From: Notamacropus eugenii
Lineage: Eukaryota > Chordata > Mammalia > Diprotodontia > Macropodidae
Direction: 5' to 3'
NCBI RefSeq assembly: GCF_028372415.1
Contig: NC_092872.1
Coordinates: 517,700,224 to 517,764,223, forward strand
DNA: 64,000 nt
In this document: piece by piece, positions 616 through 59,764 of the stretch
Layout: every line of letters begins with the position of its first letter
Numbering within the stretch: position 1 is the first letter of the stretch
Notes under the pieces: generated by a model
The model's input: only the letters and a program-made list of their open reading frames with translations
Database searches by the model: none
What the model was told of the DNA's origin: nothing
Made by a program: the position numbers and the translations under genes

Positions 616-3600
616 GAGTCTTTTCAGTGGGGTTTGACTTGCCCAGGATCACACACAACTAGTAAATGTCTGAGGCCAGATTTGAACTCATGAAGATGAG
701 TCTTCCTGATTCCAAGCCCAGTGTTCTATCCACTGAGCCACCTAGCTGCCTCTTTAGTTGAAACCCTAACCAGGGTATTTATGTGTATGTATGGAACAGA
801 ATGTGCTATCTCCAGAAAAGAAACTTGCAATCCAATTCCAGGGACCTCCATACGGTCCTCTGTCCTCTATGCTTCAGAGACATAATTTATTGTTTACGGG
901 GGTGTACAGATTCACCCCTACTTTCCTGACTAGTAAATGAACTTGAAGTCTGTTGGAGCTGGGACCACCATAGGTTAGGAGGTAGACTTCAGCTGCGCTC
1001 AGCCCATTCTTGGAACTCTTTCATCAAATGCAGGCCAGGGACCTCGCTGCAGGGCCAACACCAGGCTCACCTGCAGCCTCAATAGTTTCTCTGACCCTGG
1101 GGCGGGGCTGCCTACCTCAGTCCTGGGGAACAACATGGGGCTGGAAATTTAGTCAGGAACTGGGCTTTTTCAGTAGAAAAGTGCTATGTTCCTGCCTAGC
1201 TGGCTGTTGAAAACATTAATATTTTGCCTTCCTCTTCCTTCAAGATCATATAAACAATAATAATACTAGCATTTGTATAATGCTTTAGGTCTTACAAAGT
1301 ACTTTACAATTATCTTCATTTGATCCTTATAATTCTATGAAGTAGGTACTACATTAGCCCCATTTTACAGTTGTAGAAGATGAGGCAGACAGAGGTTAAG
1401 TGACTTGCCCAAGGTCACACAAATAGTATATATCTGATGCCACATTTGAATTCCAGGCCCAGGTTTCCCAGAGTTCCATCAATCAAACCTCATATATCAC
1501 TCAGTCAACAAGGATTTATCAGTTGCCTACTAAGTAAGACACCCTAGACACCCTTCTTCCAGCCCAGTCATGTGCATTTACAAATGAAGGCCTCGTAGAA
1601 GCTCCACCCTCATCAACCTCACCCAGGGTGGAACTTTATCTATAGGACAAAAGATTGTCCCAAAGAGCTACACCCATGGAGGCCCAGGCAGCTAGGACTC
1701 ACCTACCTCTATTTTGTTTCCCTACAAGGAAATGGAGATACTGCTTAGCATTGGAGACAGGGCAGTACAGAGGGGAAGAAAATCAGCAGACAAGCTATTG
1801 TGAAGGTTAAAGGGTCTCCCAGTAGATCTTGGTCAATGCAGGCTTAGTAGAACCATGGCATGGTAGAAACTGGCATAGATCCCTAGATGGGGGAAATCAG
1901 AAGACTTGAGTTCTAGTCTCAACTCTGCCATTAACTGTCTATATGACTTTGGAAAAGTCATTTCCCCTCTCTAAACTCCAGGGTCAAACCTGCAAACTTC
2001 CTTAGAGCAGAAACAAAGTTTAGTCAAGACCAAATAAAATAACCACTATGAAAATACTATGTAAACCAAAAAAGCTCTGTGGAAATATAAGAGACTATTA
2101 GTATTTTCAATTTCCTCCCTCCTAGTTAGCTGAGTTTGGACCACAGCATCAAAGAAGGTGTGCAGCATATTTCCATTCCCACTGGTAGGTGATGACAGGT
2201 AACTCATCTCCCTACCTCAGTGTCTCTATCTGAGAAATGGGCTAATAGTACATAGACAGCTCGATATAATTAAAAGAGCACTAGATTTGGAGTTAGGATG
2301 CTTGAATTCAATTTCCTGCTCAATTTTTACTACCATTGGGATCTTGAATTTAATTAACCTCTCTGGGACACACTTTCCATGTCTCTAAAACAAGGGAGTT
2401 GGATTACATGGCCTCAAAGGTCTATTCCAGTTCTAAACCCTACAATGTTATGAGTAAGGATTATTATCAGCTTATAGAGCCTGGCCCCACTCTTAAACGT
2501 CCTCTTTTAGTTTCATGACCTGTATAGAAAGCATGGAAATAATAATAATAGCCAACATTTACATAGCAAGGTGCATTATATATGTCATCATCTTTGCCCT
2601 TTGATTTGTCACAACAACGTTGTAAGGTAGGAACTACTATTATTATTTCTATTTTATAGACGAAGAAACTGAGAGTCAGAAAGGTTAAGTGATTTGTGTA
2701 GAGTCACAGCTAGTGAATATTAGGAACAGGATTTGAACCCAGCTCTTTCAGAGTCCAAGTTCAGCACTTTTTCAACTGCCTTCAGAGCAGAAAGTAGATG
2801 GAAAAGGTGAGACATAGAGAGGGTAAATGACTTGCCCAGGTCATATAGCCAAAGCTTCAGACCAGGTTGCACAGGAAACCCAGGATCCCTTCCACTGACC
2901 TCCTCCACTAAACCAATCCCCCAGGTTTTGAAGGGTTTTATCCATAGGCCTTTGGACATAGGCTGTACTTTATATCTCACAGAATAAGGATGGGAGGTCC
3001 GCATTGGCCATAGAACAAAAGCACAACTCTCCCTGTCAGCTCCAGCTCTCCTTGGAAATGGCAGTCTCAAAGCTCCTGACTGACACTCTCTTGTATTCCC
3101 AAGCAATTAATATCCATTGATCTCTTACCTATTAATAAGGTAGAACCTGGCTCAACAACTAAGCTGATAGCCTCTGACTTCCATAGCCTTGTTAAGTGAT
3201 ATCTCCTGGGGCCGACAGATATGCGACAAGCCAGGAACATCTGTCCCCTTTACTCAACACAGACTGAATGGAAAATAGACCTCAGTGAGAGCCTCAAAGT
3301 CTGAAAGTGCCTACTGCCAGTGTTAGCCAGCTGAGGATGAAAATACCTTCCATCATTATTCTAGCATTGGCAATAATAATGGAATTAAGAAAAATTATTA
3401 TTAGCATTAATTATAAAAGAATTAGAGACAGCAATATAGCAAGCCAGCTTTGGAGCCAGGAAGACCTGAAATCAAATTTCAAGTACATACAGATTGCTGA
3501 TACATACTGGTTGCTTGACCCTGAGCAAGCCACTTAATCCTTCAGTTCTCTAGAAAAAAAAGTCTTTAAGACTATGCATTGTGTCTGTGTGACCCTGGGC

Positions 3601-16330: not shown

Positions 16331-16417
16331 ATGTCACACTGCCTCTCAATACAAATATAAAAGTATAAAATATAAATATAAAAGTATAAAATAATGACAT
16401 TATTATCATGATTAATT

Positions 16418-16455
16418 ATTATTATGAACTAAATCCAGCTCTCTTCTCTTCACAG
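16418..16455 (+). promoter_or_regulatory. KCNB1: KCNB1 intron 1 splice acceptor
   Basis: A pyrimidine-rich run (ctctcttctcttcacag) ends in AG at 16454-16455, directly before the first S1 codon ATC. It fixes the exon start in phase 0 and excludes the intronic ATG at 16408. CORE-SINE sequence comes to within about 120 bp of the acceptor. Confidence 0.9.
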
Positions 16456-18507
16456 ATCCTGGCCATTATCTCCATTATGTTCATTGTCCTCTCAACCATC
16501 GCACTGTCGCTCAATACGCTTCCCGAGCTTCAGAGCCTCGATGAGTTTGGACAGAGCACCGACAACCCCCAGCTGGCTCATGTGGAAGCCGTGTGCATTG
16601 CCTGGTTCACCATGGAATACCTCCTCCGATTCCTGTCCTCACCGAAGAAATGGAAGTTCTTCAAAGGCCCCCTCAATGCCATTGACTTGCTGGCCATTTT
16701 GCCCTACTACGTCACCATATTCCTAACCGAGTCCAACAAGAGCGTGCTACAGTTTCAAAACGTGCGCCGGGTTGTGCAGATCTTCAGAATTATGAGAATC
16801 CTGAGGATTCTCAAACTTGCCCGGCATTCCACTGGCCTGCAGTCTTTGGGGTTCACCCTCAGGAGGAGCTACAATGAACTTGGCTTACTCATCCTCTTCC
16901 TAGCCATGGGCATCATGATCTTCTCCAGCCTGGTTTTCTTTGCTGAGAAGGATGAGGATGATACCAAGTTCAAAAGCATCCCAGCTTCTTTCTGGTGGGC
17001 TACAATCACCATGACCACTGTAGGCTATGGCGACATCTACCCCAAAACCCTCTTGGGTAAAATCGTAGGGGGGTTGTGCTGTATTGCAGGAGTCCTGGTG
17101 ATTGCGCTTCCTATCCCCATCATTGTCAACAACTTCTCTGAGTTCTACAAGGAGCAGAAGAGACAAGAGAAAGCCATCAAACGTCGGGAAGCCCTGGAGA
17201 GAGCCAAGAGAAATGGTAGCATTGTTTCCATGAACATGAAGGATGCTTTTGCCCGAAGTATAGAAATGATGGACATTGTAGTGGAAAAGAATGGGGAGAC
17301 CCTGGGAAAAAAGGATAAAGTCCAAGATAATCACTTGTCTCCTAGCAAGTGGAAGTGGACAAAGAGGACTCTGTCTGAAACTAGCTCTAGTAAGTCCTTT
17401 GAAACAAAAGAGCAGGGGTCTCCAGAGAAGGCCAGGTCATCCTGCAGCCCTCAGCACCTGAATGTTCAGCAGCTAGAAGACATGTACAACAAGATGGCCA
17501 AGACTCAGTCTCAGCCAAACCTCAACACCAAGGAGTCAGCTCAGCAGGGCAAACACAAGGAAGAACTTGAAATGGACAGCATTCCAGGTCCTGTGGTACC
17601 CCTCCTGCCCGCACGAACAGAAGGGGTGATTGACATGCGCAGCATGTCCAGTATCGATAGCTTCATCAGCTGTGCAACAGACTTTCCAGAATCCAGCAGG
17701 TTCTCCCACAGCCCATTGGCATCCCTCTCTAGCAAGACAAGTGGCCCTATGGCCCAGGAACTCAGCTGGCGGGGCCCTCCAGACTCTGGTGGAAGCAGGT
17801 TATCAGACTCCAACCCAACCCCAGATGGCAGCCAACGTTCCAGCTTCTTTATTGAGAGTCCCAAGAGTTCCATGAAGACAAATAATCCCTTGAAACTCCG
17901 GTCACTGAAAGTCAACTTCATGGAAGGGGATCAAGGCTCACCCTTACCTATGGGCAGCATCCTGGGGATATATCCAGATCCTCTCAGAAACCGGGGTGGT
18001 GCCACCATCATGGGCCTTGAGAGTGCTATGCTCCCAGATAGATCCTTGCTGAGCCCGGAGTCCTCTGTCTACACCACGGCAAGTGCCAGGACGCCCCCCA
18101 AATCCCCCGAGAAACACGCAGCAATAGCATTCAATTTCCACGATGCCAGTATCCATCAGTACATCGATGCAGACACCGATGATGAAGGGCAGCTGCTCTA
18201 CAGTGTGGACTCTAGTCCTCCAAAGAGCCTTCACAGCAACACCAGTCCAAAGTACAGCATCACCAACAGTGGATTTCTCAGGCAAAGAGACAGTGTGCAC
18301 AGGACGGACAAGAACCACCAGGAGCTTTCCCCCTTACCCACCTCGCCCAAGTTTCTAGGGCAGAACTGTGTTTATTCCATGGAAGCATTGACTGGAAAGA
18401 ACCAGAGAAGTCAAGAAAAGGGCAAACTAGATAATCACATATCCCCAGAGGTCCATGTGCTGCCAGGGGGTGGAGGACAGGGAAGCACAAAGGATTCAAG
18501 CATCTGA
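16456..18507 (+). CDS. KCNB1: KCNB1 terminal coding exon: Kv2.1 channel core and C-terminus (partial CDS)
   Basis: Delayed-rectifier voltage-gated potassium channel alpha subunit of the plasma membrane; it sets repolarisation in neurons and endocrine cells and forms ER-plasma membrane junctions. The exon encodes 683 residues in phase 0, from the first residue of S1 (ILAIISIMF) to the stop at 18505-18507. Exon residue positions: S1 1-21, S2 about 41-63, S3 74-91, S4 102-123 with regularly spaced arginines ([18 protein letters not shown]), S5 142-163, selectivity filter TVGYGD 188-193 (17017-17034), S6 202-227 with the PIP bend 219-221. The clustering motif [15 protein letters not shown] (396-410, from 17641), which binds VAP proteins, is intact. 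The C-terminus ([30 protein letters not shown], ending TKDSSI) matches KCNB1 rather than KCNB2 as I remember them. The upstream in-frame ATG at 16408 is intronic, because an acceptor precedes 16456. No disruption is seen. The T1 domain exon lies outside the window. Confidence 0.98.
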
Positions 18508-46958: not shown

Positions 46959-47020
<62 letters not shown>

Positions 47021-47084
47021 CTCTCTGTCTCTCTCTGTCTCTCTCTTTCTCTCTCTGTCTCTCTCTCTTCTCTGTCTCTCCCTG

Positions 47085-47117
<33 letters not shown>

Positions 47118-47139
47118 GTCCTCTCTGTCTCTGTCTCTG

Positions 47140-47219
<80 letters not shown>

Positions 47220-47422
47220 TCTCTGTCTCTCTCTCTCTCTGTCCTCTCTGTCTCTCTCTCTGTCTCTCTCTGTCTCTCTCTGTCTCTCCCTCTCTCTCTC
47301 TCTCTCTCTCCTCTCTGGCTCTGGCTCTCTCTCTGGGTCTCTGTCCTCTCCGTCTCTCTCTGTCTCTGTCTCTCTCTGTCTCTGTCTCTGTCTCTCCCTG
47401 TCTCTCTCTCTTTCTCTCTCTC
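46959..47422 (+). repeat. CT-rich microsatellite, about 464 bp
   Basis: Almost pure pyrimidine strand of CT units with interspersed CTGT and CCTCT variants. The long ORFs that cross it on both strands are artefacts of the repeat. A strand of this composition can form triplex DNA. Confidence 0.95.
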
Positions 47423-47769: not shown

Positions 47770-48020
47770 TCAGAGCCAAGAGGGACCTTAGAAGATGGGA
47801 TGTCGGAGCTAGAAGGGATCTTAGAAGATGGGATGTCAGGGCTAGGAGGGACCTTAGAAGGTGGGGTGTCAGGGCTGGGAGGGACCTTAGAATAGAACTA
47901 GTACATAGAAGATCAGAACAGAAAGAAGTCTTAGAACTTGGACTGATAGGTCTAGAAGATACATTAAAATATAAAACATAGAATTCTAGAACTGAGAGGA
48001 ACCTTAGAACACAAGGGACT
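47770..48020 (+). repeat. 33-bp-unit tandem array, most regular copy
   Basis: Units such as gatgtcagggctaggaggga followed by ccttagaag repeat cleanly three to four times and then decay over four more. Translation gives RRDLRRWDVRA-like 11-residue repeats, a by-product of the 33-bp period. Confidence 0.8.
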
Positions 48021-50509: not shown

Positions 50510-50627
50510 CTAGACAAACAGGAAACTGTGGACAGCAGGACAGGAACAGACTTCCAGCTGCTGAAATCTCTTCCAGGTCCCTCTACAGCTGGGATTGCCA
50601 ACAGCCTGCCACTGAAGCAGCTGGTCC
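50510..50627 (-). CDS. SBSPON-like: SBSPON-like exon 5: C-terminal end and stop
   Basis: 118 bp of coding sequence after the acceptor gcttgtttgttccag, ending in TAG at 50512-50510. It encodes DQLLQWQAVGNPSCRGTWKR and then VCSCPAVHSFLFV, near the SBSPON end (CSCPAVHSFIFI). The last three domain cysteines are here. The motif CSCPAVHSF is the clearest family signature in the gene. Confidence 0.93.
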
Positions 50628-53600
50628 CTGGAACAAACAAGCACAGAGCATAAACCTTCAAGGCGGTAGCACCTGTAAGTTGGTCCAATCATCCGCAGGG
50701 TCACCACAAGGCCATCTGGATATGTTTCATAGGGATCTACATCTTCCAAGGCTGGAGAATTTGGAAATAAACCAACAAATAGTATGAATTTCAGAATCAC
50801 AGAATGAAAACAGCAAAGAACATGGAAAGAACCTAAAGAATGTTAGAACTAGAATGTCAGAGAAGGGGCAGAAACAAAACAAAAAAGAAGGTCCAAGTTG
50901 GAAGCAACCTTCGGGCAAGGAACACAGATTGTTAGAGTAAAAAACACCCTTAGAACATAAAATATCGGAGCTGGAAAAGGGGTTAGAACCTAGAATCTTA
51001 GAACTTAGTATACATCCAATGTTAGAACATAGAATCTCAGAGTTGGAAGGAACCTTGGGTCATAACTCTAGAGCTGGAAAGAACCTCCAAAGCCACAAAG
51101 CCCAACTTCCTCATTTTACAAATGAAGACACTGAGGCCCAGTAAAAGTCACACAAGTGAAATTCCAACCTCCCATGTAAAAGAGGAGCACCCCCTACAGC
51201 CTCCCAGAGAGGCAGACATGAAGCATCAGTTGACTAGCCAGGGAAAGATCATTTCACAAGTCAACGACTATAAGACAGCTCTAAACATCAGTTCTTGCTA
51301 ATAGTGAGCCAATATTTGCCTTTCTAAAGACCTTGACCTAAATGGCCCAAGGTCTCCCAGTGCATCCTGGGTCATCTCCAATCATCCTGAGCAATATCTG
51401 GTCACTGGATTCAGATGGCTCTGGAGGAGAAGTGAGGCTGGTGACCTGCACAGCCCTCCCTCACTCAAAACAAAGTCAAGTGCAAGTCATGTCATCATTT
51501 CTCCAATGGCATGGTCTTCTTCAGCAATGAAGGACGAACACAATTCTGTAACTTCCATCCACACACATTGGTTCAACCTTCTGGCATCTTCCTTTATCTG
51601 GCTCACTCTAAACCAAGAGGGATGACTTCTTCACACACAAACACACAAACACAAACACACACCACCCAGTGCCAAAGTCCAGACTCTCACCCTCTGGATC
51701 CTTTACCATCCCCATAGCACCGAAGGCTTCTCATATCCAGGGCAGGTGGCTCACACAACACACAGACCGTATGCCCTTGGGTGAGGTACTTCATCCACTG
51801 AGTGAAGGGGGCCCTTGTCTGAAGGCAGCCCACAGTGATGGTCACCAGCTGGAACATGACACAGTACCTGTGGCCAACATAAGGAAACACGCATACATAA
51901 CAACCATAACTACTAGCAATAATAGAGTATATTCTGAGACCATCCTCACCTCCAGCCCACCAACCAGAGCAAAAAAAAGCAAAACTTTGTTACGCGCCTA
52001 CTTCCCCAATGGTACCCCTTACTCCCACTTGTCTACGTCAGCATCCTCCAGAAACAACCTAATCTTGTGTCCCTTTTCCTATTAATCCCTGCTAAGGTTA
52101 GTGTAAACTGCTCACCATGGACCCAGAATAGGAAGGGGTACCTAGAACATAAAATTCATAATGTGAGAAGAAAAAGGGACCATATAACTGTGAACATGTT
52201 GTGTTTCTCTCAATAGAATGCCAACTGCCCCCCCCACCTTGAGGGCAGGGATGCCTTCACTTTGGTATTTGTATTTCCAGGGCCTAGCAAGTGCCTGGAA
52301 CATGTAGTAGGAGCTTAATAAAGGCTTGTTAATTGACTGATAACATGAAATATAGAATGGCAGAGCTGGAAGGTACCCTGACACTTAAAACGCTAGAAAT
52401 GGAAAGGATCTTAGGACATAATAAAAGCTAGCATTTGCATAGTTTGCATTTGAAGTTTGAAAAATGCTTTTCATATTATCTCATTTGACCCTCACAACAA
52501 CCCTATAAATTAGGTGATATTCTCATCCCCATTTTGCAGATGAGACAACTGAGGCTGAAAGAACTTAAGGGATTTGCCCACTTAACACAATCATACAACT
52601 AGTAAGTATCTGAGACAGGATTTGAAAAAATGGAGTCATTGAGCCCAGAAGACACAAGTTTGCCTTGCTTTCAATAACTTTGCCATATAAAAATTTCCAA
52701 TTAGGGGAATGGGGATTCAATTTATAAAAGGATGCTTTACTGTAAAAAAAAAAAATTCCACTGGACTCCTGTATCCAAAAAGCTTTCCTAAGGCACCTAA
52801 ATGTAATTCAATTTACAGAAATTCTATTTGCCTTCAACTTTGTGAAGAACTGTTTGGAGGTGGTGTGGAGCAGAGGGAAGGCTTAGCAATATCACCCCCT
52901 GCTGGGGAAAGAAGGAGACTGCCCTCCCCACTACCACATCTGTGACCACGTGCATCGGGTGCCCTCTAGTGGCAACAGATCTGAGCATCTCTGAAATAAT
53001 CCATGGAGCTGTGGTTTTTCAGCCCTTGCCTAAAGCATTGACTTTGGGTGGGGGTGGGGACAAGGTTCCCAGGACTGGCCCAGGCTGCGCTGGAGAGTTG
53101 TAGTGTCAAACTCCAAACAGAAGCACAGGCCACTAAACGATACATAAGGATCCCTGCAGACTGCATGGTAACTTAGTAACATTAAAATGTAATGCTCTCT
53201 GTGTTCTACTTCATTTCTGTTTGCTTTGTTAACTATTTCCCGCTTACATTTTAATCTTGTTCAGGAGCAGTTTTGGACAGCATGTGACCTCTTGGCCATG
53301 GGCTTGACACCTTTGATGCAGAACACTGAACCAAGGAAATTCAAAGACACTCTCCCCAGAGAGCAAATAACCTCTTTTTTCATGGGAAAAACAACACAGC
53401 ATAGTATACAGGGCCTGGGCTAGAAGTCAGATGTCCAATAGTCTTCTAGCTCTCATCTTGTCTCTTGATTCACTGGGTGACCTTAGACAAGTAATTTCTC
53501 CTCTCTGGGCTTTCATTTCCTCTTGTGAAACAAAAAGGAGGCTGGGATTGCTAAGAATTGGAGTCAGAGAACCTGGGTTTGACTACGGTACAATTTACCT

Positions 53601-56600
53601 TTTGGGTGAGTCCTAGGATAAATTGCTTCTCCTCCTTTTCTTAATTTTAAAATGCCACATTTAGTCCAGAGGGTCATTCTGCAGAAAAAAAGGGCTTTTT
53701 TTCTAGAAATGTAAACTGTCACACATGTGGGGGAACAGTGAGAAATAAGAAAGGAGATCACTGCAGGTTCTACAATGACTATTTTTTTTTTTACTTTTAT
53801 TTTCAGTTCCAATTCTCCCTTTCTTTTCACCTCCTCCCCCACCACTGAGAAGGCAAGAAAAGTGATACCCATTACACATTCGAAGAATGAGCCTATTTTC
53901 TTAACAAAAACTTGAGTCCTGTACCGGCTAGCACTCTCCTCAGGGAAATGATGTTGTACATATGTTGTATTTAATTCCCCAAGAGAAGGCAAGTTTCTTG
54001 AGAGCAGGGAGAGTCTGCATTTTTTTTCCTTTGTATTCTCCAGCACAGTGCTCATTTGGCACATAAAAGGCACTAAACAAAGTGCTCTTTGGATGGATTA
54101 AGGAATGAAGAATATCTTTCTCACTAAGCCTCATTAACAGAATATTTTCTTTTCCCGAAATCAGGAACAATCACGATAATGATGGCTAACGTTTACATAG
54201 TGCTTACTATGTACTAAGCACATTACAGTTATCATCTCATTTGAATCTCACAACAAACCTGGGAGGTAGGTACTGTTATTATCCCCATTTCACAGCCAAA
54301 GAAACAGGCAGAGAATAAGTGACTCGCCCAAAGTCACACAACAAGTAAGTTGATGAGGAATTTGAACTCAAGTCTTCCTGTCTCCAGGTCAAACACTCTA
54401 TCTACTGCACCTCCTAAAAAGTGACTGACAATAATGATCGCTGGTATCTCCATAGCCCTTTAAGGTCAACAATACACCTTCCTTACAACAAGCTTCTGAA
54501 GGAAGATGTGTAAGTATTTTTATTCCCATTTTGCAGATGAAGAACTTTGTAAACTCTAAATCCTATGAGTATGGATTATTATCAATTAATAGAGCCTGAC
54601 CCACACGTAGATATTCTCTTTTCACTTCATGACCCTTATAGAAAGCATGGGCATAGCAACAAACATTTATCAATTGCTTTAACATTGTAGAATGAGTGTC
54701 TGAACTGGAAGGTAGCTTGGAATATAATTATTATTATAACAATAGCAACAATAACAGTAATTAAATATATTATCTTATATGACTTTCACAGCAACCCAAT
54801 GAAATAGGTGCTAGTATTATCCCCATTTTAGAGATGAGAAAACTGAGACTGAGAGAAGCTTAGTGATTAGCCCATAGTCCCAAAGCTAGTAAATATCAGA
54901 GCTGAGATCCAAAGCCAGTTTTCCTGCATCTCCAGTCCAGTACACTTTCCACTATGGAGGAGATTAGATTTGATTCAGTCGGAAACAAGGAGCACTGGAA
55001 AGATTTTCAAGACAAGATGAAGACTGGGCTTTGTTTTTCTTGTTGTTCTTTTAACTGACATTTACCCTCCATCACAGACCTCCTCCAATGTTTCATTTTC
55101 ATGGGGTATTCATGATCCCTGGTTCTTAAAGCTTTTGCCAATGGGGTATGAGCTCAGGCAAGAACCCCCCAAGATGGAAAGTCTTTGAGCATGAGCCCAG
55201 TGATGGACTTGCCATGTTTGCCTGTCCTTCAAGGCTCAGCCTAGCTAAGATTGGCCACCAGGGGGTGATTTTTTTGTCCATAATAACCTGTGCAGACTGC
55301 TGGCACTCTGGTGCAGAGGGGTTGAGATCTAGGCTGGTAGAGGAAATGCTCAGACCCGAAAAATGGTGGATTTTTTGAAGTCACTTACATTTACACAGGG
55401 ACTTTAGGTTTTAAACGCACTTTCCACATATTAGCTCATTTGATCCTCACAGCAACTCCATGTAGCAGACAAGGCAGAGATCATCATTCCCCATTTCACA
55501 AATGGGAAACTAAAACTCAGAAAGGAAGTGACATGCCCCAAAGTTAGCCTCAGGAGACATTGTCTAGGTCCCCGTTCTCATCCTACTTACCCAGCTGATT
55601 TTCTCTCTTGGGCCACGGCTCTCTTTTTCCTCCCATTCTGGAAGGCCCCAGTGGTTATGAGAGCTGGGACTGTGGGGGCCAGAGAGAGAGAACAAGACTG
55701 AGTAACTGCCCCCAGCCAGGGCTCCTGAAGAAACAACAGCATCATCTACAGGAGAGCCAAGGCTGGTTCAATTTGACATTCAATCTATTAGAAAAAATAA
55801 TACTTCAAGTTGCACTGAAAGCCTAGCCTTGCCATTCCTCCCACCAACAAGCAGGTTTTTGATCAGGACAGTTGCAGGAAAGAGAGGAGAAGGAGGGAGA
55901 AGAACTGAGTCAATTCACAAGAGGTGGATAAATTCTTCCAAAAGCTCAAAATGGCAGCCATATCACAATCACAGGGGCTGCACTGGGTAAAAGACCCAAG
56001 GTGGCAATCAGAGGAAGGAGTGTGGGACAATTCCAGGGCTTCCTTGCCCATGATTTCTCTGTAGTAGAATTTGGTTTTCATGGTTAGCTCACTGGATCAC
56101 AAAGATTTAATGCTAAATGGAAACTAAGAGCGTGTCCATCAATTGGGGAATGGTTAAAGAAGTTGTGGTAGATAGTAATAATAGAATATTACTGTGCTGG
56201 GAGAAATGTTGAGCAGTCAGATTTAAGAAAAACATGGAAAAACTTGCATGAAATAATGAAGAGTGAAATGAGCTGAACTATGAGAATGTTGTATATAGTA
56301 ACAGCAATACTGTTCAGAGAACAGCTGTGAAGTTATTACGAATACTGCAAATGCTCAAATCAACTACAAGGGATCTACGAAGGAAGATGCTATCCACCTC
56401 TAGAGAAAGAACTGATCAATAGAAGTATGCCCAGTATGATTATACACGTATTTATAGATCTGTGTCAAATGGTGACCTTCTCTAGTGTGGGGCAGGGAGA
56501 GAGGGAGGCAGACACTTTGGAATTTAAAATGCAACAAAGAAAAATAAATTCAATTAAGAAAGAAAGAAGATTTTGTGCTAGAAGGGACCTTAGAACTCCA

Positions 56601-59600
56601 CATTTTACGGAAGGGTTAGTATGGGCCTAGATCGTAGAACATAGATTATTAGAATTGGAAGAGAACTTGAAAGAACATCTGGTCCAACCTCTCATTTTAG
56701 AGTCATGTAAACCAAGGCCCAAAAGTTAAGTGAGTTGCCCAAGGGTCCCACAAATCCATTGCTCATTCTAGCACGCAACACAGTGAATGCTGAAAGAGCA
56801 GCAATTATGCCATAGCTAAACTTTGTGCTTCTCCCAGCACACAGTAGGTGTTTCATAGCCATTTGCAACTATGGTCTTTCCTGCCTCTTTCTACTACTTA
56901 ATAACAAAAGTGAATCACAATGACCAGAGAAGGCTGAATTTAGGTCACACTTTTGTCCCCAATCTGCCTCATATAAAACCTAAATACAGCCTACAATTGG
57001 TGTCATTTTTCAATTTATATATAATTTTTTCTTCCATTCAAAGTGCTCTCATTTTAGGGTTACAGACCTATATTTGGTTCTCTCAACCATAAAGGATGCC
57101 AAAAGATACAGTGGAAGAAAGCTTGGATGACCACTTACCCAGGATGTTGTGGAGAGAATTTCTGTTCAGGTAAGAGTTGGACTAAATGATTTCTGGTTGT
57201 TAAATTTTCAGTGTGAACATATCAGAAATCAACAAATCCTACAAATCAGGGCTTGATTTACTGTTTTGCTGATTGTCTCAGTTTAAGGAAGTAATAGCGA
57301 AAATGTTAGTAAAGCTAATTAAACTAAAAAATGTGTCCTAAGTATTGTAAAGCAATATTGCAATAAAGCAGCATTGCTTTCAGAGAGTGGGTTGTTAAAC
57401 ATTTACTGCATACCCTTGCTTCCAACCCTAAGATTTTGGGAAGGGAGGAAATCCATACTAGTCATCAGGGTGGGTATCAATACAGCACAAAGATGGAAGA
57501 GGGCAGAACTGATCAGGGAATAGCATGCCATGCAGTTTGGTTGAAATATAGGCTGCAACAAGGGGAGCAGATCATCCATATGTATCTTACATGGCTAGCT
57601 ATTGCCCCATGATCCATTATCCCACTTTGGTCCTAGTTGCCAGGACGAGATTTGGAATTCCCAGAATGAGAATTCTATTCCTATTTGTGGAGTTAGGCTA
57701 AGGGGTCCTGGAGAGCAAAGCTAAAAAGGGAACAGTATCATAGCATTTGAAGCTAGAATGTTCCTTGGACAATATCTAGCTCAAAGGTGTCAAACACACA
57801 GCCTAGGCAGCCAACAGTCCTCTTGAGTGATCCAGATTAACATGTCATTGGGAAATATTTAACTAAAGAATAAAGATGCAATAGAACATGGATAATGTCC
57901 ATCTGTGGTTTTCTAAGTCAATGTGCAGCTGGAAGGGACCCTTTTGTACAGTTTAGCTGTTGATGTTTCTATCTGAGTTTGACACCACTGCTCTTTTTTA
58001 ATGGTCCTCGTCTTACAGAGGAAGACATTAAGACAAGTGTACCAGAATTCAAACCCCAAAACAGAACAGAACAAAACTGAGTTCTAGCCCAAACAGGTGA
58101 ACCCTGAACACTCTTGGATAGGCACAACATTTCCTCCTCAGTATAGACCACAGAGCATTCCTAGATGAGGACATTCTTTCTACAATGCAGGGCAACACCT
58201 TCTTTGGAATGTAGGGTCTTGGAGAGTTACTTAGACCCCTGAAAGATGAACTGCTTACCCAGGGTCACACAGCCAAAGCTAGGAATGAAGCCAGGTCTTC
58301 TTAGCTCTGAGTAAAGACCTTTTTTTTCTTTTTTGAGAAATTCAAAATTGGATTGGGCTGGGTGAGACTAGAGGTATTGGAACAGAGACTCTAGAGATTC
58401 ATCAGCCAACCCTCACCCTCCAGATCCATCTGATAGTAGAAAGACCTCTGGCCTTGGAGTCAGAGGACATGGAATTGAGTCCCAGCTCTTCTGTTTACCA
58501 CTTATGTGACCTGGGATAAGTCATTTCCCCACCTTGGGCCTCAGTTTCCACATCTATAAAATGGATCAGTCTTTCCTAAGGACCCTTGCAGCACTATAAT
58601 TCTATGCTCTATATTATAAAGTCTGTTCTTGCTCTATAACTCTATATTCTGGGAATCTTTCCAAGTCTAAAATCCTATGGGCCCTCAGGGTTCATAATAA
58701 CGTTGATAACAATGACTCACATTTATAGAGTGCTTTAAAATGCACAAAATGCTTTGCATCTATTATTTCACTTGATCTTCGCTATAGCAGGAAGGCAGGC
58801 AGTGAAAGAGCTAGACTGAGAGTCAGGAAGATCTGAGTGCAAATTCTGATTCAGATGTTTGCTCACTATGTGATCCTGGGCACATCCTTTAACCTATCTC
58901 ATCCTCAATTTCCTACTGTTTAAAGTGTGGATGATAATAGTGTCTACTTCCCAGAGTTATTGTAAGGATCAAGATATAAGATAGGTAAAGTGCTGTATAA
59001 ACGCAAAATATTCTTATTAATTATCCTATTAATAGATAAGCACTATCATCACCTCTGTTTTTCAGTTGAGACAACAGGGTGAAAAGGTGAGTGACTTGAA
59101 CAGGGTCACACAGCTATTTCATCTCTAAGGTAGGATTTGAACCCAGGTCTTCCTGACTGCAAGTCCATCCCTCTATTCACTGGCACTCAATAAATAAACA
59201 TGTATTAAGTGTCCACTATGTGCCAGACACTGTGCTGCAGGCTGGGGATATAAAAAGAAGGACAGTCCCTGCCCTCAAAGAGCTTATAATCTAATGGGGG
59301 AAATAACAAGCAAACACATATATAGAAGGCAAGCTCTGCAGAAGATAAATAGAAAATAATTAAAAGAGAGAAAGCACTGGAATTAAGAGGAGTGAGGGAA
59401 GGCTTCCTGTAGAAGGTGGCAATTTAGTTGAGATTTCAAGGAGGTTGGGAGCTTTTATATCATGCTATCTCCTCTGGCACTTGGGGCTTTTTGAAAGTTT
59501 TCCCAGCCTGCTGTTTCAGAAAACCCTCAACTTTCTGCCTTGTCCCTTTGGCCCCTTCCTGGCACTCACTCAGGGCCTGTTGGCACTCCACCCCCTCATG

Positions 59601-59764
59601 GCTCCAGTATTCCACACAACCGGCCCTCTCCTCCAGTGTGGGGCAGGGGCCACCGCCATTCCTTGGCTCTCTTAAGATTTGTCTCCTTCGAACTCGAAAA
59701 GTGACAGTACAGGGTTCAACACACCGGCTCCAGCCACTCCACTCAGACACTGCGCAGGTCACAG
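50510..59764 (-). CDS. SBSPON-like: SBSPON-like gene, coding exons 2-5 (first exon outside window)
   Basis: Four minus-strand exons join in frame: 59764-59570, 55669-55591, 51867-51691 and 50627-50510 (569 nt, 188 codons plus the completing bases of a split codon). Every junction has GT/AG and phases agree (1-1, 1-2, 2-2, 2-stop). The product has a six-cysteine thrombospondin type-1 repeat (WSGWSRC, NGGGPCP, EERAGC), a basic linker (PALITTGAF then GRKKRA), and an eight-cysteine C-terminal domain (WMKYLTQGHTVCVLCEPPA, WQAVGNPSC, CSCPAVHSFLFV). This is the order in SBSPON/RPESP, a secreted protein with somatomedin B and TSP1 domains. Identity to human SBSPON, from memory, is about 50%, low for a marsupial-human orthologue, so I take it as a paralogue. 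The signal peptide and somatomedin B exon, expected in phase 1, are not seen up to 64000. Open frames, good splice sites and a poly(A) signal argue for a working gene. Function: presumed extracellular matrix protein, otherwise unknown. Confidence 0.88.
50785..51080 (+). repeat. 33-bp-unit tandem array
   Basis: About eight degenerate units (agaacatagaatctcagagt, tggaaggaacctt) running into a SINE core. It lies in intron 4 of the SBSPON-like gene. Shorter or more decayed arrays: 14810-14905, 35380-35520, 40560-40690, 43215-43345, 45940-46060, 56565-56700 and 58565-58680. Confidence 0.7.
51340..51545 (+). mobile_element. RTE-tailed SINE, 3' half
   Basis: From tgcatcctgggtcatctcca to cagcaatgaaggacgaacac, nearly identical to the second half of the 60.2 kb copy. 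The tRNA-like head is missing. It lies in intron 4 of the SBSPON-like gene. Confidence 0.75.
51691..51867 (-). CDS. SBSPON-like: SBSPON-like exon 4: C-terminal cysteine domain, first part
   Basis: 177 bp, phase 2 at both ends. Acceptor ttatgttggccacag, donor AGAGG|GTGAGA. It encodes YCVMFQLVTITVGC, then FTQWMKYLTQGHTVCVLC and EPPALDMRSLRCYGDG; five cysteines match SBSPON positions (YC, C, VCVxC, LRC). About half the residues are identical to human SBSPON over this exon by my recollection. The junction to exon 5 keeps the residue spacing of human SBSPON exactly (GDG to LxWQ). Confidence 0.92.
53780..53930 (-). mobile_element. L1 3' end fragment, minus orientation
   Basis: A T-rich start followed by tcccccaccactgagaaggc and acacattcgaagaatg is the reverse complement of the terminal L1 3' UTR. 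Short fragment in intron 3 of the SBSPON-like gene. Confidence 0.5.
54175..54420 (-). mobile_element. CORE-SINE, near full length
   Basis: Plus-strand reading taatgatggctaacgtttac, tgaatctcacaacaaacctg, atccccatttcacagccaaa, caaagtcacacaacaagtaa and cactctatctactgcacctc is the exact reverse order of the family. In intron 3 of the SBSPON-like gene. Confidence 0.8.
55591..55669 (-). CDS. SBSPON-like: SBSPON-like exon 3: linker with basic cluster
   Basis: 79 bp, entered in phase 1 and left in phase 2, too short to find by ORF length. The acceptor has a long pyrimidine tract (ctctctctctggcccccacag) and the donor is GCTGG|GTAAGT. The translation PALITTGAFQNGRKKRA followed by VAQERKSAG aligns with human SBSPON PAFITTSAFNKERTRQA and its DAG just before YC. 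The RKKR run is a possible proprotein-convertase site that I do not recall in human SBSPON. Confidence 0.85.
56128..56560 (+). mobile_element. L1 3' end (5'-truncated)
   Basis: From cgtgtccatcaattgggga through gaatattactgtgctggga, gagtgaaatgagctgaacta and ctagagaaagaactgat to an A-rich end. Recognisable L1 3' UTR order, in intron 2 of the SBSPON-like gene. Confidence 0.7.
57193..57415 (+). mobile_element. Short DNA element with GTGTGCT ends, left-truncated
   Basis: Internal ggttgttaaattttcagtgt and cagggcttgatttactgttt, right end gttgttaaacatttactgca. In intron 2 of the SBSPON-like gene. Confidence 0.55.
57782..57990 (+). mobile_element. Short inverted-repeat DNA element
   Basis: Ends caaaggtgtcaaac (57782-57795) and gtttgacaccactg (57977-57990) are inverted repeats with 12 of 14 matches, around about 180 bp without an ORF. 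A left-end relative (cagaggtgtctaacacg) starts near 48814. In intron 2 of the SBSPON-like gene. Confidence 0.6.
58700..59185 (-). mobile_element. Nested pair of CORE-SINEs
   Basis: A minus-strand CORE-SINE (58700-58790 and 59030-59185) is split by a plus-strand one (about 58790-59030: gtcaggaagatctgagtgca, tgatcctgggcacatccttt, ctgtataaacgcaaaata). Another plus copy lies just upstream at 58440-58690. Confidence 0.65.
59190..59460 (+). mobile_element. Longer SINE-like interspersed repeat
   Basis: cactatgtgccagacactgt, gtccctgccctcaaagagct, ggcttcctgtagaaggtggc in order. The same repeat appears more decayed at 6200-6480, 12000-12100, 32600-32890, 43860-44230 and 48540-48830. It ends 110 bp short of exon 2 of the SBSPON-like gene. 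Confidence 0.6.
59570..59764 (-). CDS. SBSPON-like: SBSPON-like exon 2: thrombospondin type-1 repeat
   Basis: 195 bp, phase 1 at both ends. Acceptor tttgttcttccag and strong donor TGA|GTGAGT. It encodes about 65 residues beginning VTCAVSEWSGWSRCVEPC, with the W-x2-W tryptophan pair used for C-mannosylation in TSP1 repeats, the arginine ladder TFRVRRR, and NGGGPCPTLEERAGC, which closely matches SBSPON (NGGAPCPPLEERAGC). All six TSP1 cysteines are present. The frame stays open past both splice sites, giving an apparent ORF of 147 codons; only the middle is exon. Confidence 0.92.

Follow-up and report, generated by a model that had tools for sequence, protein, structure and literature searches.

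Here we present a member of the SBSPON family that lies beside KCNB1 in the wallaby Notamacropus eugenii, within and beyond a 64,000-nucleotide stretch of contig C1 (NC_092872.1; C1:517700224-517764223), hereafter the window, to whose positions all unprefixed coordinates refer. This KCNB1-linked gene is very probably a protein-coding paralogue of SBSPON, intact in all five exons, that derives from a duplicated ancestral KCNB-SBSPON-STAU block and was kept beside KCNB1. Its membership of the family is clear: a somatomedin-B (SMB) domain, a single TSP1 repeat, the SBSPON_C domain and the exon and phase pattern are all present. We read it as a paralogue and not as a moved SBSPON because the copy beside KCNB2 is 86% identical to human SBSPON, whereas the KCNB1-side copy is 52-53% identical to both.

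Two SBSPON genes in one genome

The second gene is located on contig C14 (293771478-293722681, minus strand) and comprises five exons and 267 codons. Judged by its sequence, it is the SBSPON orthologue, being identical to the human protein at 225 of 263 positions. The KCNB1-linked protein matches the human protein at 137 of 259 positions (53%) and the C14 protein at 135 of 260 (~52%), and the C14 copy is therefore the one nearer to human SBSPON. The human sequence used throughout agrees with PMC12320502 in its length (264) and mass (29.6 kDa), in having NQT at position 227 and at six Thr/Ser sites. The initial annotation had put the identity to human SBSPON at about 50%, which is right over the whole protein. 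It had also read the gene as the duplicate partner of SBSPON and expected another gene beside KCNB2 in the same genome; that gene exists, and the partner reading is supported by its match to human SBSPON. On these identities, the KCNB1-linked gene would have separated from SBSPON before the marsupial/placental split, unless its rate jumped.

Whole-genome searches covered 3.445 Gb in 254 contigs; exons were scored separately and only the best candidates were scored, so that divergent copies may be missed. The search with PF25031 (SBSPON_C) returned seven matches at E ≤ 10, four of which are exons 4 and 5 of the KCNB1-linked and C14 genes. The other three (C1:574990292, C15:60390660 and C23:323789642) were rejected as stop-bearing and unrelated by eye. 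One match in the KCNB1-linked gene contains a TGA, and this match extends 28 bases beyond exon 4 into the intron. Two of the 18 SMB matches are exon 1 of the same two genes (C1:517778095-517778169 for the KCNB1-linked gene), and the other 16 coincide with no SBSPON_C match; no third family member was found by these searches. The PF00090 search gave 84 matches from the 150 of 341 candidates that were scored, and the TSP1 exon of neither SBSPON gene was among those listed.

Structure of the KCNB1-linked gene

The window contains exons 2-5 only, on the minus strand between 59764 and 50510, with AG at all four acceptors and GT at the three internal donors. Spliced together, they stay open in one frame for 188 codons, up to a TAG. 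Exon 2 (59764-59570) encodes the TSP1 repeat with its WSGWSRC motif, and is supported by splice sites, frame and the Pfam TSP1_spondin match. Exon 3 (55669-55591) encodes the linker between the TSP1 repeat and the C-terminal domain; its splice sites are canonical, and its phases, 1 and 2, equal those of the C14 copy. Exon 4 (51867-51691), matched by PF25031 in the whole-genome search, encodes the first part of SBSPON_C, and exon 5 (50627-50510) its end, with the TAG stop at 50512-50510. An AATAAA polyadenylation signal is read directly from the same strand at 50247-50242. The four in-phase exons, canonical splice sites and polyadenylation signal of the initial annotation thus hold, coordinates included, for what the window contains.

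Exon 1 was sought by scanning the minus strand, from position 59001 to the end of the 100 kb beyond the window, for somatomedin-B cysteine patterns. The single match beyond the window, 14 kb past its end at window-equivalent 78102-77871 (L010:3871-4102, minus strand), encodes the SMB domain, begins with MAHGAVLTW and closes with a GT donor whose phase fits. The complete gene has a coding span of ~27.6 kb and comprises five exons and 266 codons, with no stop and with all four introns GT-AG. Its intron phases (1,1,2,2) are those of the C14 copy, and the exon lengths correspond closely (232/226, 195/195, 79/88, 177/177 and 118/118 for the KCNB1-linked and C14 genes, respectively). An in-frame alternative, pairing an exon 4 donor after 51707 with an exon 5 acceptor before 50751 (50751-50628, minus strand), would give a longer insert in the C-terminal domain; as the main form it was rejected, scoring 39.6 bits against SBSPON_C, versus 50.3 bits.

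Domains and sequence constraint

Exons 2-5 alone score 56.9 bits for TSP1_spondin (cut-off 41) and 51.3 bits for SBSPON_C (cut-off 27), far beyond chance, which bears out the TSP1 repeat and SBSPON-family C-terminal domain first proposed for this gene. In the 266-residue protein, TSP1_spondin (PF19028) scores 54.5 bits (cut-off 41) over one stretch only, SBSPON_C (PF25031) 50.3 bits (cut-off 27) and SMB (PF01033) 23.8 bits, a narrow margin over its cut-off of 23.1; the C14 protein, at 21.4 bits, falls below that SMB cut-off. The N terminus (MAHGAVLTWAWALALGAI) is, by eye, hydrophobic and signal-like, and the WxxWxxC motif of the TSP1 repeat is kept.

Outside the signal region there are 24 cysteine columns, and the KCNB1-linked, C14 and human proteins share every one of them (the human sequence alone has a further cysteine, the 25th, within the signal region). 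Had the 135 identities fallen randomly, the chance of keeping all 24 would be 5e-8. Over 259 codons compared between the KCNB1-linked and C14 copies, codon positions 1, 2 and 3 are 66, 71 and 36% identical. By region, SMB is best kept (33/51), followed by the C-terminal domain (53/99) and the TSP1 repeat (32/60), and the linker is worst (10/29, 34%). From these patterns the gene looks like one under selection and not like one in decay.

A shared KCNB-SBSPON-STAU block

The last coding exon of KCNB1 lies at 16390-18507 on the plus strand (a 705-residue open frame; Pfam Kv2channel, 198.6 bits); we take it to be KCNB1 and not KCNB2 by its likeness to the human sequence. Its next-best place in the genome, C14:293597797-293599116 on the plus strand, shows 78% identity across residues 18-446 (against 50% at the place ranking third) and is presumably KCNB2. 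KCNB2 and the C14 SBSPON gene are ~124 kb apart and lie tail-to-tail, like KCNB1 and the KCNB1-linked gene. Genome-wide, Staufen_C gave three matches at two places, C1:517935682-517936802 and C14:294324314-294324550, so that KCNB, SBSPON and STAU occur in the same order on C1 and C14. Both SBSPON copies are thus surrounded by paralogous neighbours, a KCNB pair and a Staufen pair, as expected of ohnologues.

Around the KCNB1-linked gene the order is KCNB1 (plus), the SBSPON paralogue (minus), a SNORD12 cluster (minus) and ZNFX1 (plus). The cluster comprises four SNORD12 matches on the minus strand before ZNFX1 (L015:811-905, 1238-1324, 1646-1735 and 3016-3107; window-equivalent 124811-127107). 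These copies presumably belong to ZFAS1; human ZFAS1 holds three SNORD12 copies. Two long open frames on the plus strand, at window-equivalent 132600-134510 and 140166-142691, are taken to be ZNFX1 by likeness to its sequence. In human, KCNB1 and ZNFX1 are adjacent, and no SBSPON-type gene is known to lie between them.

The KCNB1 exon also contains, at 17020-17133 on the plus strand, a match to the potassium channel RNA editing signal of Rfam (K_chan_RES; 73.3 bits, cut-off 51), which may simply reflect coding sequence common to Kv1 channels. Elsewhere in the window, a TC dinucleotide array of ~460 bases (46959-47422) opens spurious frames on both strands, and a 33-base tandem repeat (47780-47892) comes after it. 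The interspersed repeats of the window resemble SINEs of marsupials. Five further open frames in the window gave no Pfam match.

Origin of the KCNB1-linked gene

We propose that an ancestral chromosome block carrying KCNB, SBSPON and STAU was duplicated anciently, probably when the genome of early vertebrates doubled, in either the first or the second of those two rounds; one SBSPON copy would then have been retained beside KCNB1 and the other beside KCNB2. Such an event would be ordinary in kind, a genome-duplication partner retained here and apparently lost in human, in this case for a gene that has received little study. Several points weigh against this origin. The placement compares three sequences, all mammalian and without an outgroup, and the low identity may in part come from fast evolution of the KCNB1-linked copy, so that its age is unreadable from identity alone. 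The collinearity covers three gene families, the C1 block holding ZNFX1 and SNORD12 copies besides; STAU differs in strand between C1 and C14; and on C14 the Staufen match carries two TGA and one TAA codons, perhaps because it was read across an intron. In addition, no single SBSPON_C exon match reached the family cut-off in the genome search (best E 0.109); it is the spliced protein that assigns the gene to the family.

It is extremely unlikely that the KCNB1-linked gene is the true SBSPON orthologue, relocated by rearrangement. Its domains place it in the same family, as that account would have it, but another gene occupies SBSPON's place beside KCNB2 and is 86% identical to the human protein, compared with 53%, which, judged by this genome, refutes relocation. 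A later small-scale duplicate of SBSPON, made after the vertebrate genome duplications and before the marsupial/placental split and landing beside KCNB1 by chance, is unlikely in our view. The comparison covers mammalian copies only, and on these three sequences a duplication of the region at a later date keeps a small probability. However, a chance landing explains neither why paralogues of KCNB and STAU surround the two copies in one and the same order nor why both copies stand tail-to-tail with KCNB, and the retention of all four introns rules out a retrocopy.

We also considered whether the gene is an early-stage relic, intact in sequence yet out of use, and regard this as quite improbable. 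The poorly conserved linker and the loss of the N-glycosylation site (see below) would suit a relic; the 266 codons without a stop, four of four GT-AG introns, 24 of 24 cysteine columns and third codon positions far more changed than first and second would not. An intact paralogue left by duplication of the KCNB-SBSPON-STAU block accounts best for the gene.

Relation to known genes and proteins

Human SBSPON (RPE-spondin) is a chromosome 8 gene of five exons encoding 264 residues (PMC12320502). The KCNB1-linked gene is like SBSPON in its SMB, TSP1 and SBSPON_C domains, five exons, intron phases (judged against those of the C14 copy), 24 cysteine columns, WxxWxxC motif and tail-to-tail arrangement with a KCNB gene. 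It is unlike SBSPON in being ~52% identical to it, in having RGD and no NQT at the place of human Asn227, in neighbouring KCNB1 and not KCNB2, and in an extra basic site, RKKR, in the linker.

The type of gene is known already. At least one placental mammal has a gene annotated at this place, since a dromedary association study lists 'SBSPON ZNFX1, KCNB1' at Chr19_10589993 as genes within 50 kb of a single-nucleotide polymorphism (PMC10357240). Because it shares KCNB1 and ZNFX1 as neighbours within that distance, the dromedary chromosome 19 SBSPON is likely to be the orthologue of the KCNB1-linked gene; in that study it figures as a table symbol alone. The initial annotation held that the copy was kept in this lineage; it is kept in this mammal, but the dromedary listing indicates that it is not kept only here. 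In chicken, an SBSPONL on chromosome 15 (8-9 Mb), listed together with SUSD2 (PMC10976558 and PMC7402339), shares an SBSPON-like name, but its 1-Mb window lists no KCNB1, PTGIS or ZNFX1; going by name and neighbours, it may be a third member of the family, set among other genes. The passages on SBSPON in PMC7296076, PMC11640446, PMC13207980, PMC13371210 and PMC10238425 hold nothing on the KCNB1-linked copy, and no paper describing this gene was found among the matches listed from the open-licence literature.

Likeness of the KCNB1-linked protein to F-spondin and other TSP1-repeat proteins is confined to the TSP1 repeat; among PDB sequences the protein comes closest to Vasculostatin-120 (7r84, E 0.0028), followed by F-spondin (1szl, E 0.012). 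None of the 12 PDB sequences at E ≤ 10 matched SBSPON_C convincingly. The SMB domain of vitronectin (2jq8) is a weak match (E 0.2). Vitronectin is secreted and carries both SMB and RGD; it has no TSP1 or SBSPON_C, and its RGD comes straight after SMB, whereas that of the KCNB1-linked protein lies in the C-terminal domain. The PAI-1-binding residues of vitronectin are not matched by eye.

Possible function

The domain order is a putative signal peptide, somatomedin-B, one TSP1 repeat and the cysteine-rich SBSPON_C, and on sequence grounds the most likely product is a protein that is secreted or resides in the secretory pathway; we infer that the gene is expressed and the product secreted. Because the TSP1 repeat with its WxxWxxC motif is kept, the protein probably enters the secretory pathway and undergoes C-mannosylation of tryptophan, the WxxW/C motif for this modification being described in PMC8433626.

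Human SBSPON is reported to be a glycoprotein found chiefly in the endoplasmic reticulum, with a TSP1 repeat that binds HSPA5; when Asn227 is mutated, the effect of SBSPON on surface HSPA5 is partly reversed (PMC12320502). The C14 copy retains NQT at the position of Asn227. In the KCNB1-linked protein the loop DGNQT of SBSPON reads RGDQL, DQL replacing NQT, and no N-glycosylation sequon occurs anywhere in the protein. The RGD so formed straddles the exon 4/5 junction. Asn227 of the human protein can carry a glycan, and therefore this loop should be exposed. RGD appears in ~6% of shuffles of the protein (1132/20000), and for this reason we treat it as a lead only. Loss of the N-glycan site and gain of RGD in the same loop may mean that function has diverged from that of SBSPON. 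One could go further and suppose that the paralogue turned into an integrin-binding matrix protein, having lost the single N-glycan that helps human SBSPON to keep HSPA5 away from the cell surface and gained RGD in that exposed loop in a vitronectin-like combination of SMB plus RGD, kept by some mammals and lost in human; this is an improbable proposal.

Implications for the SBSPON family

SBSPON has generally been treated as a single gene. Work on knockout mice and on bladder-cancer cells of human origin reports a tumour-suppressor role for it (PMC12320502). With a second intact mammalian copy, the function of SBSPON, this role included, should be weighed with the possibility in mind that the lineage concerned has lost the partner. 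If the KCNB1-linked gene is indeed kept in some mammals and absent in human, it would offer a clean natural comparison for the role of the lost gene and for what SBSPON may have taken over from it.

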